Assembly (NCBI GenBank): GCA_008638005.1
Contig: VTPE01000002.1
Location: 1-39,669 of the forward strand
Direction: 5' to 3'
DNA from: Pelagibacteraceae bacterium
Lineage (GTDB): Bacteria > Pseudomonadota > Alphaproteobacteria > Pelagibacterales > Pelagibacteraceae
DNA: 39,669 nt
Each line of letters opens with the position of its first letter. Position 1 is the stretch's first letter. The notes below the pieces were generated by a model. The model did no database searches. It saw nothing but the letters and a program-made list of their open reading frames with translations, and was not told the DNA's origin. The position numbers and the translations under genes are program-made. This document shows positions 33,389-38,098 of the stretch, piece after piece.

Positions 33389-33730
33389 CTATTTCGAAAA
33401 GGCCTTATTTTTTAAATATAAAAAATAAGCAATAATTTCGTAAAAAAAATGAAAAACTTGGAAAATAATTGGAAGACTAAAAATTTTATTTAATATTTTT
33501 AATTTTGGTATTCTAGACCATACAATCAGAAAAGCTTTTGCCCCGCTGTATAGTTTTCCATCATCTAATACATGAAGCCTTCTTGATAATTGGTCAGTAT
33601 CTAAATTTGTAACTTTAGCTTCTTGTTGATGAATATCTACCCAGCTAAGATCGTTTTCCATTTTTTTATAAAGATCAATTTCTTTTTTACAAATTTTGCA
33701 TGACTCATTAAAAAAAACCTTGGTGGTCAT
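33389..33730 (-). CDS. DCC-family thiol-disulfide oxidoreductase-like protein (DUF393)
   Basis: 113 aa. VFFNESCKICKKEIDLYKKM near the start has the Cys-x2-Cys of the DCC family, and WVDIHQQEA, RRLHVLDDGKLYSGAKAF and the C-terminal hydrophobic helix fit DUF393. The redox role is presumed from the CxxC. It overlaps the upstream small membrane gene by 4 nt. Confidence 0.83.
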   Translation of the reverse strand: MTTKVFFNESCKICKKEIDLYKKMENDLSWVDIHQQEAKVTNLDTDQLSRRLHVLDDGKLYSGAKAFLIVWSRIPKLKILNKIFSLPIIFQVFHFFYEIIAYFLYLKNKAFSK

Positions 33731-33918
33731 TTTTTAACTTTCTTTTTTTTCTTTTTTGTTTTCTTTTTATTTTTAGTTCTACGTGACTTTAATGCTAATT
33801 CTCGTTGTTTTTTTTCTACATTATCTTTGAGTAATGTTAAAATTCCAAAAACAATAAGAGCACCAGCTCCTAAAAGTCCGTAGGATAACAAGGCTTCAAT
33901 GGGTAATGGTTTAATCAT
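33727..33918 (-). CDS. Small membrane protein with poly-Lys tail
   Basis: 63 aa. One membrane helix (YGLLGAGALIVFGILTLL) is followed by a cytoplasmic tail of about 35 residues with a final run rich in Lys. No family is known to me. It overlaps the upstream gene by 8 nt and the downstream DCC-family gene by 4 nt, so all three are translated together. Confidence 0.65.
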   Translation of the reverse strand: MIKPLPIEALLSYGLLGAGALIVFGILTLLKDNVEKKQRELALKSRRTKNKKKTKKKKKKVKK

Positions 33919-34147
33919 CTTCCTCCTCTTCTAACCAGTGTTCCATAAATACTTTATGACATGCATAACAAATAATTGGTATTGAGAAAAAAAAACCAAT
34001 AGTTACGCCCGTTTTCATACCATAATCAATAATTGAGAAATGAGTCATTGAAATAGTGGGTATTGTACAAACTGCAATTAAATATGGAACTCTCCACTTA
34101 AATGCTGGTTTAAAATGTTTAATAAAATAAATAAATTTTAAAATCAT
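33911..34147 (-). CDS. Small membrane protein with acidic tail
   Basis: 78 aa. Two membrane helices (YLIAVCTIPTISMTHF and GVTIGFFFSIPIICYAC) and an acidic C-terminus (EEEEDD). It is the first of three overlapping genes. No family is known to me. Its tail is charged oppositely to that of the next gene's product. Confidence 0.65.
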   Translation of the reverse strand: MILKFIYFIKHFKPAFKWRVPYLIAVCTIPTISMTHFSIIDYGMKTGVTIGFFFSIPIICYACHKVFMEHWLEEEEDD

Positions 34148-34231: not shown

Positions 34232-35521
34232 CTATGAAACGATTTTTAAATCTGCTTTTTTCTTTTGATCAAAGAATTGTTCATCTTCGGTTGAACCTTT
34301 AAGTGCTGTCGTAGAAGATGTTCCAGAACTTACAATATTAGAGATTTGATCAAAATAAGATGCTCCAACTTCTCTTTGATGTTTTGCTGCAGTATAACCT
34401 TGCTCTTCAGCAGCAAATTCTTGTTGTTGAAGTTTTGAGTAAGCAAACATTCCATCTTTTTTGTAATTTCTTGCGAGATCGAAAACTGCATAATTTTGAG
34501 CATGAAAACCTGCAAGCGTGATAAATTGAAATTTATAACCCATCTCACCAATTTTTTGTTGGAACTCTAACATTTCTTGATCTGAAAGATATTTTTTCCA
34601 ATTAAATGATGGCGAGCAATTATAGGCTAACAATTTCCCTGGAAATTTTTCATGAATTGCATCAGCAAATTCTTTAGCCTCTCCAAGATCTGGTGTTGCT
34701 GTTTCACACCAAATTGCATCACAATAAGGTGCATAAGCAAGACCTCTAGAAATTGCCTGTTCTAATCCGGGTTTAACATAATAAAAACCTTCGGGTGATC
34801 TTTCACCTGTTAAAAACTGTTGATCATTTTCATCAACATCTGATGTTAAAAGTTTTGCAGCATTTGCATCTGTCCTTGCAAAAATGCAAAGCGGAACATC
34901 CATTACATCTGCGGCCAGTCTTGCTGACTTTAAGTTTCTAACTGCATTTTGAGTTGGGATTAAAACTTTACCACCCATATGACCACATTTTTTTTCTGAT
35001 GCTAACTGATCTTCAAAATGAACTCCTGCAGCGCCTGCTTTAATAAATTTTTTAGTTAATTCAAAAACATTTAAAGGTCCGCCAAATCCTGCTTCTCCAT
35101 CTGCAACAATTGGCATATGATAATCTACAGCTTCATTAGCTTGCATCTTGCCTTCTAAAACTTCCATATGCTGTACTTGGTCAGCTCTCATCAAAGCATT
35201 AATCATGCCTTGAACTAATTTAGGTGCACTGTCATATGGATATAAACTTTGATCTGGATACATTTCACCAGCACTATTAGCATCAGCAGCTACTTGCCAT
35301 CCTGATAAGTAAATTGCTTTCAATCCAGCCTTAGCATGCTGTACTGCTTGATTTCCTGATAAACTCCCTAATGTATTAACGTAGTCTTCTGAATTTAATA
35401 ATTTCCATAATTTTGATGATAGTTCTTTTGAAACTGAATATTCAACGTTAAAAGTTCCTCTTAATTTTTTTACATCTTCTTCAGTATAATCTCTTTTAAT
35501 ACCCTTAAATCTGTTCTCCAT
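34232..35521 (-). CDS. aceA: Isocitrate lyase AceA
   Basis: 429 aa, full bacterial length. It splits isocitrate to glyoxylate and succinate, the first step of the glyoxylate bypass for growth on acetate or fatty acids. The catalytic motif KKCGHMGGK carries Cys179, and [10 protein letters not shown] and [11 protein letters not shown] blocks are typical. AAAGGAGAGC precedes the ATG. No malate synthase is nearby. Two small ORFs precede it on the same strand, and a RamB-like regulator diverges beyond them. Confidence 0.97.
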
Positions 35522-35554
35522 TATTTTTGCTCTCCTTTGTTTTTGTTTAAAATT

Positions 35555-35725
35555 TTAAAATAAATTTTTTATATAATTGAATAATTTTTCCCCTGTTCTT
35601 TTGACGGTCTCCTTTTCTTTATTTTCCATTGCAATAACATCTTGATAATAATTATCCTGTTCATCAAAGCAGTAATCATCAAGTGTAACGCAGTTACTTT
35701 CTATGTTGTGTTTATCCCTTGCCAT
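35555..35725 (-). CDS. 56-aa small protein upstream of aceA
   Basis: ATG at 35725 lies one nucleotide after the TAA of the previous small ORF, and the stop is 33 nt before aceA. The product is acidic in the first half (two Cys, CVTLDDYCFDEQD) and basic at the end (KLFNYIKNLF). It has no signal peptide and no recognised family. Its position implies co-transcription with aceA. Confidence 0.6.
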   Translation of the reverse strand: MARDKHNIESNCVTLDDYCFDEQDNYYQDVIAMENKEKETVKRTGEKLFNYIKNLF

Positions 35726-35726
35726 A

Positions 35727-35891
35727 TTAAGCTCTTTGTTGATTTGATGTATAACGACTTAATCCTGAAGATCCCCAGTCCTGATCATCTTCATTCATAG
35801 TTAATCCCTGTTGAGGTTTAGGATCATTAGCAACCGCCTCTCTAATCTTTTCCTCAATTTCCCTAATAAATTCACTTCCAGTTTTAGTCAT
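35727..35891 (-). CDS. 54-aa small protein, first in the aceA unit
   Basis: ATG at 35891 follows AAGGAGATAAA, a strong ribosome site, which argues for a real gene. The helical N-terminal half (EFIREIEEKIREAVAND) is followed by a polar tail (DWGSSGLSRYTSNQQRA). No family is recognised. It is the first gene downstream of the aceA-ramB divergent promoter, so its expression should follow that of aceA. Confidence 0.7.
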   Translation of the reverse strand: MTKTGSEFIREIEEKIREAVANDPKPQQGLTMNEDDQDWGSSGLSRYTSNQQRA

Positions 35892-35918
35892 TTTATCTCC
35901 TTTTTTAAATTTACATTA

Positions 35919-36016
35919 TTTACAAAATATATTTTTTTCAATTAAAATGGCTCTATTGCTTGTAAATTGAGTAAATTAATATTGACTAATAGTTTTCAAT
36001 TTGTAAATTTTGTAAA
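35919..36016. promoter_or_regulatory. Repeated TTTGTAAA-type sites in the aceA-ramB divergent region
   Basis: Copies are seen at 35919-35927 (minus, TTTTGTAAA), 35960-35967 (TTGTAAAT), 35999-36007 (ATTTGTAAA) and 36008-36016 (TTTTGTAAA), the last two being adjacent direct repeats. They resemble the AAANTTTGCAAA site of corynebacterial RamB with C changed to T. The last one ends 2 nt before the regulator ATG, suggesting autoregulation. Confidence 0.6.
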
Positions 36017-36018
36017 CT

Positions 36019-37434
36019 ATGAAAAATCAAATTGGCTTTAAAATTAAAAACGCCAGAAGAAAAGCAAGTATTTCTCAGGCTGATTTATCAGCAAAACTTG
36101 GAATTTCTTCAAGCTACCTGAATCTAATTGAATCTGGAAAAAGAAATGTGAATGTTGATCTTCTTCTTAAGGTTTCTGAAGTATTAAATATTGAACTAAA
36201 AGATCTCTCCAAAAAAGAAGATGCCAATTTATATCATGATGCATTAGATCTACTTGGAGATAATATTTTTGAAGACTTAGATATTACTAATATTGAGGTA
36301 AAAGATCTGGCCAATAACAATCCTCTTATTGCAAAAGCTTTAATAAGATTAGGCGATTTTTATAAAAAAGGAAATAAAGAGATATACTCAAAAGTAGAAA
36401 GTATATCTGAAGATAATATTGTAAATTTTAAATCTAGTTTTCCAGGTGAAGCAGTTTCTGATTTTCTTCAAGAACATAATAATTATTTTGATGAACTTGA
36501 AGACTTTGCTAATAAAATTTTTAAATCTGTAAATTCAAAAAATAGAACGAGACACGTCTTGCTTGTTGATTACTTAAAAAAAAAACACAATGTTGATGTT
36601 GTAGACATCGTCCCATCTGAAAAAGAAAATTTTGCAAAAAAATTTGATTTAAATCAAAAAAAATTATTTTTATCAGACTACTTAACTCTAGAAACAAAGA
36701 AACTTTATACTGCATCACAAATTGTTCAACTGGAAGCGATGAACATTATTGAAAAGCAATTAGTTAATTTTAATTTCCAAAATGATGAGTCCAAAACACT
36801 AACAACTATTGCTTTAATTAATTATGCAGCTGCGGCTATACTCATGCCTTATGAACTTTTTTATCAAGAATGTATTAAGCATCGTTATGACCTAGAGTTA
36901 CTCCAACATACATTTGCAACTTCATTCGAGCAAGTTGCTCACCGAGTCACATGTTTGCAAAATCCAAAAATGAAAGGAATACCGTTTCATATGTTAAGAG
37001 CGGATATTGCTGGAAATATTTCTAAACGTTTATCTTTATCTGGGATTCAAATCCCAAGATATGGAGGAGCTTGTCCAAGATGGAATATTCATTCTGCGTT
37101 TGTTACTCCTGGAAAAATTCATACTGCACTTTCTAAAATGACTGATGGGGAGAAATATGTTTGTATTGCTCGTACAGTTGAAAAAGGTATTGGTCGTCAT
37201 GGTGTTCACAGAAGCATGGTAAGTATTGGATTGGGATGCCAAGCAAAATATGCAAAAGATTTTGTTTATGCCGATCAACTTAATTTGAAAGATGAAAAGG
37301 CTGCAATATCTATTGGTGTAAATTGTAGGACATGTACTCGACTAGATTGTCAGCAAAGAGCCTTTCCCCCGATTAACAAAAAGTTTAATATTGATTTAAA
37401 TAAAAGGGGTATTTCGGTTTACGTCGGTGAGTAA
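36019..37434 (+). CDS. RamB-like regulator of acetate/glyoxylate metabolism (XRE + DUF2083)
   Basis: 471 aa. Residues 5-63 are an XRE helix-turn-helix (ISQADLSAKLGISSSYLNLIE). The middle is an IrrE/ImmA-like region and the end a DUF2083 domain with RNRHGVHRSM-type and CRTCTRLDCQQRAFPP motifs, where Cys may bind metal or sense redox. RamB/ScfR regulators control isocitrate lyase and acyl-CoA genes in actinobacteria and alphaproteobacteria. Divergence from aceA fits. No Shine-Dalgarno; the operator-like repeats reach the start codon, so the message may be leaderless. Confidence 0.88.
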   Translation: MKNQIGFKIKNARRKASISQADLSAKLGISSSYLNLIESGKRNVNVDLLLKVSEVLNIELKDLSKKEDANLYHDALDLLGDNIFEDLDITNIEVKDLANNNPLIAKALIRLGDFYKKGNKEIYSKVESISEDNIVNFKSSFPGEAVSDFLQEHNNYFDELEDFANKIFKSVNSKNRTRHVLLVDYLKKKHNVDVVDIVPSEKENFAKKFDLNQKKLFLSDYLTLETKKLYTASQIVQLEAMNIIEKQLVNFNFQNDESKTLTTIALINYAAAAILMPYELFYQECIKHRYDLELLQHTFATSFEQVAHRVTCLQNPKMKGIPFHMLRADIAGNISKRLSLSGIQIPRYGGACPRWNIHSAFVTPGKIHTALSKMTDGEKYVCIARTVEKGIGRHGVHRSMVSIGLGCQAKYAKDFVYADQLNLKDEKAAISIGVNCRTCTRLDCQQRAFPPINKKFNIDLNKRGISVYVGE

Positions 37435-38098
37435 CAGCTTTTTAAAATTTCAAAAAAAAGTTTACTCATGTCGAAAATGTACTCGCCTAGTTAAATTTAG
37501 AAATCAAATAGTTAAAAAAAAAAGAAAATCTTACGAAGATCAAAAATACTGGGGTAAACCTGTTAGTGGATTTGGGGATGTTAATGCTAAAATTGTTTTA
37601 GTAGGTTTGGCTCCAGCTGCCCATGGTGCTACGAGAACTGGTCGAGTTTTTACCGGTGATAAGTCAGCAAATTTTTTATTTAAATGTTTGCATCAATCGA
37701 GGCTAGCTAATCAGCCTAACTCTGATCATCTAAAAGATGGTCTTCAATTAAAAAATATTTTTATTACCCTTGCTTTACGTTGTGTACCGCCTCAAGATAA
37801 ACCTAAACCTGAAGAATTAAAAAACTGCTCAAATTATTTTAAAGAAGAATTATTTTTATTAAAAAATAAAAAAATTATCATCGCTCTAGGTAAAATTGCC
37901 TTTGATGCTTGTATTAGGTTTTATAAGCAAAATTTTAATATTTCAGGATCATATAAATTTGGGCATGGATTAAAGTATAAAATTAACGATATAATTTTGT
38001 TAGGTTGTTATCATCCATCTCCAAGAAATGTTAATACGAGGAGAATAAATGAAAAAATGATGATTGATTTGTTTAATAAAGCAAAAAAACTTGGATAA
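37427..38098 (+). CDS. Uracil-DNA glycosylase family 5 (UdgB-like)
   Basis: 223 aa starting with GTG and overlapping the regulator by 8 nt. The active-site block GLAPAAHGATRTGRVFTGD, without the usual Asp/Asn of family 4, plus the C-terminal HPSPRN identify family 5. An N-terminal CRKC and two later Cys (LRCVPP and LKNCSN) fit its 4Fe-4S cluster. It removes uracil and some other deaminated bases from DNA. It is convergent with sodB across 1 nt. Confidence 0.9.
   Translation: MSNSFLKFQKKVYSCRKCTRLVKFRNQIVKKKRKSYEDQKYWGKPVSGFGDVNAKIVLVGLAPAAHGATRTGRVFTGDKSANFLFKCLHQSRLANQPNSDHLKDGLQLKNIFITLALRCVPPQDKPKPEELKNCSNYFKEELFLLKNKKIIIALGKIAFDACIRFYKQNFNISGSYKFGHGLKYKINDIILLGCYHPSPRNVNTRRINEKMMIDLFNKAKKLG

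Follow-up and report, generated by a model that had tools for sequence, protein, structure and literature searches.

The window, a stretch of 39,669 nucleotides from a Pelagibacteraceae genome (contig VTPE01000002.1), contains two small open reading frames in the gap between a ramB-like gene and aceA, both on the aceA strand. ORF1 (35727..35891, minus strand) encodes 54 aa and ORF2 (35555..35725, minus strand) encodes 56 aa, the lengths and places that an earlier note on this DNA had reported. A single base, 35726, separates the TAA stop codon of ORF1 (35729-35727) from the ATG of ORF2 (35725), as that note had claimed, and the good Shine-Dalgarno that it had seen for ORF1 is AAGGAG at 35897..35902 (minus strand), a few bases ahead of the ATG; ORF2 has a weak AAAGAG alone. 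ORF1 comprises a predicted N-terminal helix followed by the core motif NEDDQDWGSSGL (residues 33-44), and the core of ORF2, IESNCVTLDDYCFDEQ, lies near the N-terminus. The gene aceA (34232..35521, minus strand), which encodes isocitrate lyase (Pfam ICL, E 1e-115), is 33 nt downstream of ORF2 and has its own ribosome site, the Shine-Dalgarno AAAGGAG at 35532..35538 (minus strand). The interval from aceA to a DCC1-like oxidoreductase gene contains two mutually overlapping ORFs of 63 and 78 aa (33727-33918 and 33911-34147, minus strand), which are conserved in the sister genome G009 (91% and 81% identity) and have no significant family match.

The gene divergent from ORF1 (36019..37434, plus strand) encodes a ramB-like ScfR regulator according to Pfam. 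Its product has the domains of the RamB/PrpR type: an N-terminal HTH_3 (PF01381, E 3e-13), a central M78-like domain (IrrE/M78, PF06114, E 8e-10) and a C-terminal ScfRs domain (PF09856, E 5e-60). It overlaps a uracil-DNA-glycosylase-like gene (37427-38098, plus strand) by 8 bases, so that the two genes, which span 36019-38098, are probably co-transcribed.

The intergenic region between ramB and ORF1 contains two RamB-like double boxes, both exact genome matches: TTGTAAATAATGTAAA (35910..35925, minus strand), just upstream of ORF1, and TTGTAAATTTTGTAAA (36001..36016, plus strand), directly ahead of the ramB start codon. Such a near-identical pair in a divergent intergenic region is the arrangement expected of a promoter controlled by an ScfR regulator. 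The genome of the window has two copies of the exact double box TTGTAAANNNTGTAAA, both in this gap. Two of the three copies in G009 lie inside the same promoter, as do two of three in G306, a genome of the second family described below (f141); the remaining exact boxes in these genomes and in G005 and G017 are within other genes. The ramB-less genome G022 has no exact double box genome-wide, and a reversed control pattern gave 0-2 matches per genome. In genus g3 the second half of the box reads AGTAAA, so these boxes fall outside the exact pattern. Recognisable RamB-like sites, taken as the exact double box, are nearly confined to this promoter.

In Paracoccus, ScfR regulators recognise pairs of boxes ahead of the genes of the glyoxylate shunt and are responsive to CoA esters, according to the excerpted text of PMC10370305. 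As described there, the RamB operon of Paracoccus denitrificans resembles the present locus in having an ScfR regulator gene, ramB, divergent from the shunt genes, and paired near-identical boxes in the intergenic region. It differs in that malate synthase and then icl stand behind the promoter, whereas micropeptides precede aceA in SAR11, and in that the box spacer is 18 bp instead of the 3 bp of the window; the same excerpt makes no mention of a micropeptide (PMC10370305). By analogy with Paracoccus RamB, we infer that the SAR11 regulator binds the boxes described here.

In first-order Markov sequences, the chance of one aceA-strand ATG ORF of at least 54 aa in the 497-bp gap is 4.6%, and that of two such ORFs is 0.06%. 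Conservation is far stronger evidence for ORF1 and ORF2 than these odds. At the same location in G009 are relatives of ORF1 (E 1.7e-15) and ORF2 (E 6.4e-11), with identities of 55% and 47% to the window, against 95% for AceA and 90% for RamB; the micropeptides thus evolve more rapidly than the genes beside them. Among the 147 family genomes searched, the credible relatives of the two ORFs lay between ramB and aceA. With a profile, a single ORF1-type protein was found in each of 101 genomes among the 197 of the order, with E 6e-16 or better, and the named records bearing them were Pelagibacteraceae in every case. The window was accordingly attributed to a SAR11-type bacterium. At least one micropeptide of the types defined below was present in the gap at all 52 distinct Pelagibacteraceae loci examined with ramB beside aceA, and the gap micropeptides of SAR11-type relatives have 40-80 residues. 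The profile and class search across Alphaproteobacteria gave no credible ORF1-type match outside the order. The class-search matches in G164, G210, G393, G396 and G472 (E 0.01-0.07) were taken as chance because they were weak and mostly within long reading frames, and weak ORF2 matches (E above 0.009), many of them within frames of 190-656 aa, were also dismissed as chance. The outcome that the earlier note had named as damaging, a lack of conservation in relatives or a coding signal that vanishes on alignment, was looked for and did not occur. Chance ORFs are ruled out by the conservation, the Markov-sequence odds and the purifying selection described below, and the conservation of both supports the proposal of two real small genes at the head of the aceA transcription unit.

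Three types of micropeptide were distinguished by their cores. The A-type, to which ORF1 belongs, was defined by an invariant D-x(2)-D-W-G-x(2)-G core in a protein of about 41-64 aa located between ramB and aceA; its core reads [ED]D[DH][QC]DWGSSG, with GIYMRDDHCDWGSSGM in genus g4 and GVYVREDDQDWGSSGM in others. The B-type was defined by the core IESNCV-x(3)-D-x-C and includes ORF2; it reads IESNCVx(2)DDxC, as in IESNCVSFDDDCYNET, and among the genomes sampled it was found only in genus g1, together with the A-type, and alone in genus g6. The C-type core, HDDVCFxDQ or HDDVCFDET (HDDVCFxD), was found in G013, G014 and G120. Profile-profile comparison showed no similarity between A and B, and a single superfamily for A, B and C was abandoned on this account; B and C have DDxCFDE in common, by eye only. 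In the AceA tree, g1, the genus of the window (A and B), is sister to g12 (A only) plus g6 (B only), which suggests an ancestor with both types. The simplest history that this suggests is one of differential loss in which at least one micropeptide was always retained. ORF1 and ORF2 had no match in Pfam, NCBIfam or PHROGs, the other micropeptide types gave insignificant matches only in curated-family searches, and the A-type profile had no match below E 0.2 in PDB. In addition, the literature searched contained no paper on an isocitrate-lyase small protein in SAR11. The A- and B-type micropeptides are families absent from the curated families searched.

The coding-selection check proposed in the earlier note for both peptides showed purifying selection, with core pN/pS of about 0.10-0.14. 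In close pairs, the values were 0.10 for the DDHC variant of the A-type core and 0.14 for its EDDQ variant, and the B-type core gave 0.10 from 5 pairs only. Outside the core, A-type pN/pS was about 0.6. Core pS was 0.42-0.66, that is, synonymous differences at 42-66% of sites, near saturation. Low core pN/pS together with freely varying synonymous sites indicates that the protein rather than the RNA is conserved, a pattern in keeping with a translated protein that has a single short docking motif, and not with a conserved RNA or DNA element. A structured RNA or riboswitch in the gap was considered and rejected, since there was no Rfam match and synonymous sites vary freely; nor does aceA appear in a survey of P. 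ubique RNAs. The AlphaFold model of ORF1 has a mean pLDDT of 64 and a single helix (residues 5-21), and the core is without confident structure. The micropeptides are probably largely disordered, with one conserved linear motif each.

In genera g3, g4 and g7, the micropeptide ATG directly follows TATAGT- or TATAAA-like promoter text and has no Shine-Dalgarno, which suggests a leaderless mRNA. At loci of these genera, such as L017 and L030, the ATG abuts TTTGTAAATATAGTAAATTT or TTGTAAATTATAAAGTTTAC, and a regulator box lies over the -10 region of the candidate leaderless mRNAs. In G034 and G050 the upstream box is decayed and TATAGT is retained.

The presence of the micropeptides was compared with that of ramB and aceA, which were found in 54 and 59, respectively, of the 147 family genomes. 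Four genomes have aceA and readable upstream sequence without detectable ramB (G002, G050, G107 and G034). The micropeptide is missing in G002, G050 and G107, in which aceA is intact, whereas G034, a genome 78% complete, keeps both micropeptide and aceA with no ramB found, so that ramB may not be strictly needed for the micropeptide. The absence in three of four ramB-less aceA genomes gave a Fisher p of 1.4e-4 with kinship ignored, a result which is suggestive only, given the shared ancestry of the genomes, the small number of ramB losses and the possibility that neighbouring genes disappear in one event. There were at least three ramB losses, too few for any significant sign test on the tree, and some co-losses may represent single deletions because the genes are adjacent. 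In G050, promoter-like text and the first micropeptide codons are joined in frame to aceA (MNDSADSSKIKFGNVSFDLKRF...), as if an in-frame deletion had taken the micropeptide core and the start had been reused for aceA. The loci L190 (G050) and L082 both present this apparent fusion of aceA to the first codons of a lost micropeptide, with promoter-like text kept; ramB is absent from them, and a homocysteine-methyltransferase-like gene faces aceA instead. At the loci examined in other members of the class, the gene opposite ramB is aceA or a malate-synthase-like one, and nothing comparable to the small ORFs was recognised.

A second marine alphaproteobacterial family with small genomes, f141, presents a parallel arrangement. 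Its RamB has 46-49% identity; ramB was found in 66 of 80 genomes, and a divergent conserved micropeptide in 63 of 80. This micropeptide is an ORF of 51-59 aa, located 120-136 nt from ramB, with the motif YS[EN]RYGW[TS]LRK and a motif pN/pS of 0.15. The 14 ramB-less genomes of the family, which are incomplete, gave no credible micropeptide match. With an isocitrate lyase query that succeeds in SAR11 and f105, aceA was found in none of the 80 genomes. The family may correspond to AEGEAN-169/HIMB59, a group reported as mostly without aceA (PMC10308909). At most f141 loci read, the ATG comes directly after a TGTAAAnnnTGTAAA-like box; examples in which the ATG often abuts the box are L186 (G306:C4:59000-65000) and L228-L256. 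The f141 micropeptide showed no homology with the SAR11 A-type (hhalign probability 0.2%), so the parallel between SAR11 and f141 is one of position, size, build and promoter. Apart from ramB itself, the exact boxes point to no recognisable output in f141 other than the micropeptide. Taken with the absence of the micropeptide from G002, G050 and G107, its retention in f141 makes the link of the micropeptides to RamB at least as strong as that to AceA.

We consider the chances about even that ORF1 and ORF2 are RamB-controlled, trans-acting small regulatory proteins whose docking motif binds another protein. According to this proposal, the micropeptides would be made from the promoter facing ramB, and RamB, a member of the acyl-CoA-responsive ScfR family, would bind TTGTAAAnnnTGTAAA boxes at either end of the divergent promoter. 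RamB would thereby determine how much micropeptide is made and, in SAR11, how much of the AceA encoded behind it. The earlier note had expected expression together with the glyoxylate bypass, which is plausible from the gene order and the RamB-like boxes, and its reading of the ORFs as regulators is likewise plausible. We also infer that the micropeptides are expressed and act in trans, the conserved motif docking on another protein. The favourite target, a guess from pathway logic, would be an isocitrate branch-point enzyme such as isocitrate dehydrogenase, with the outcome that isocitrate is diverted while the shunt is on. In E. coli, this diversion is the job of AceK. Such a target would account for co-expression with AceA, for the loss after ramB loss and for the retention without aceA. 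Since profile comparison detected no homology between A and B or between A and the f141 type, one common function is suggested by position and build only.

Other explanations were weighed against this one. The micropeptide could instead bind RamB itself and form a feedback loop on the divergent promoter, which we regard as possible but unlikely. The co-occurrence of micropeptide and ramB in two families, with and without aceA, speaks for such a co-regulator, as does the absence of the micropeptide from most ramB-less aceA genomes; however, with the exact box essentially confined to this promoter, the f141 RamB would have no physiological output unless weaker sites exist, and G034 retains the peptide without detected ramB. 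A role on isocitrate lyase, whose activity or assembly the micropeptide would tune by binding, appears somewhat less probable still. The Pelagibacteraceae micropeptide stands immediately ahead of aceA and reads the same way, and A-type matches among the 147 genomes were found only where aceA is present, but f141 retains a RamB-linked micropeptide with no aceA detected, and the micropeptide is missing from G002, G050 and G107, in all of which aceA is intact. For the suggestion in the earlier note that the peptides are partners of AceA, we found no specific support; these same genomes and f141, in which no aceA was detected, speak otherwise. Gene fusions do not favour it either, the AceA extensions of f105 resembling the motif superficially only.

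The isocitrate lyases of f105 (L160, L161 and L195-L207) have an N-terminal extension of roughly 25-40 residues, which ends near DYAPDRW and includes a variable acidic/Trp stretch ahead of it. An origin of the micropeptide as a split-off AceA N-terminus was rejected: the extension contains NDNYNWGDGG-like text, but its conserved part is DYAPDRW. As the first cistrons of the operon, with a candidate leaderless start in g3, g4 and g7 of a kind common in mycobacteria (PMC4633059), the small ORFs could also act in cis, their translation controlling aceA at the level of transcription or translation by stalling or coupling, or keeping the mRNA loaded with ribosomes. This is improbable in our view, because the conserved A-type motif sits inside the protein, ahead of a variable tail (that of ORF2 being near the N-terminus), the spacing between aceA and the last micropeptide ranges over 16-106 nt, aceA in the window has its own ribosome site, and the f141 micropeptide has no aceA downstream. 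The free variation of synonymous sites and the lack of an Rfam match also stand against it, and the sequence signs of a cis-acting leader, a C-terminal motif and an overlap with the next gene, were not seen. That the peptides are translated and serve a passive, housekeeping or stabilising role apart from the shunt is very improbable, given their strict position beside ramB and the motif-specific purifying selection in two clades.

Among known systems, the closest to the way of working proposed for the SAR11 micropeptides would be the cyanobacterial small proteins CP12, IF7/IF17 and PirC/CfrA, which dock on central-metabolism enzymes, the abundance of some being set by a metabolic regulator (PMC7760959). 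No sequence relation of the SAR11 micropeptides to CP12, IF7 or PirC was found, and they are not claimed as members of these families. The leaderless ORFs of mycobacteria are likewise short first cistrons, comparable to the SAR11 genera in which the ATG abuts promoter-like text, but many of them overlap or couple to the next gene, whereas the SAR11 ORFs have no overlap and a conserved protein motif (PMC4633059). The aceBAK operon of E. coli encodes AceK, the isocitrate dehydrogenase kinase/phosphatase. AceK thus regulates the isocitrate branch from within a glyoxylate operon, a role which is only proposed for the SAR11 peptides, and it differs from them in being a large kinase/phosphatase. The micropeptides are best filed among regulon-encoded small regulatory proteins, as a new variant. 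A wider reading, which we put forward tentatively and consider rather unlikely, is that RamB has been rewired in streamlined marine Alphaproteobacteria so that a small protein is its chief output; the micropeptide would then be a trans-acting switch at the isocitrate branch, standing in for AceK in miniature and retained even by a clade that has lost isocitrate lyase.

SAR11 are among the most abundant cells of the ocean, and their glyoxylate shunt has been described as responsive to iron supply (Beier 2015, as cited in the excerpted text of PMC6618146). A conserved micropeptide family together with a regulator whose recognisable sites are almost confined to one promoter is a candidate for a missing layer of shunt control, and it gives warning that the main product of a small regulon can be a micropeptide. 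Judged from their sequences and genomic setting, these micropeptides look like an overlooked RamB-controlled regulatory peptide, and not like a simple enzyme partner.
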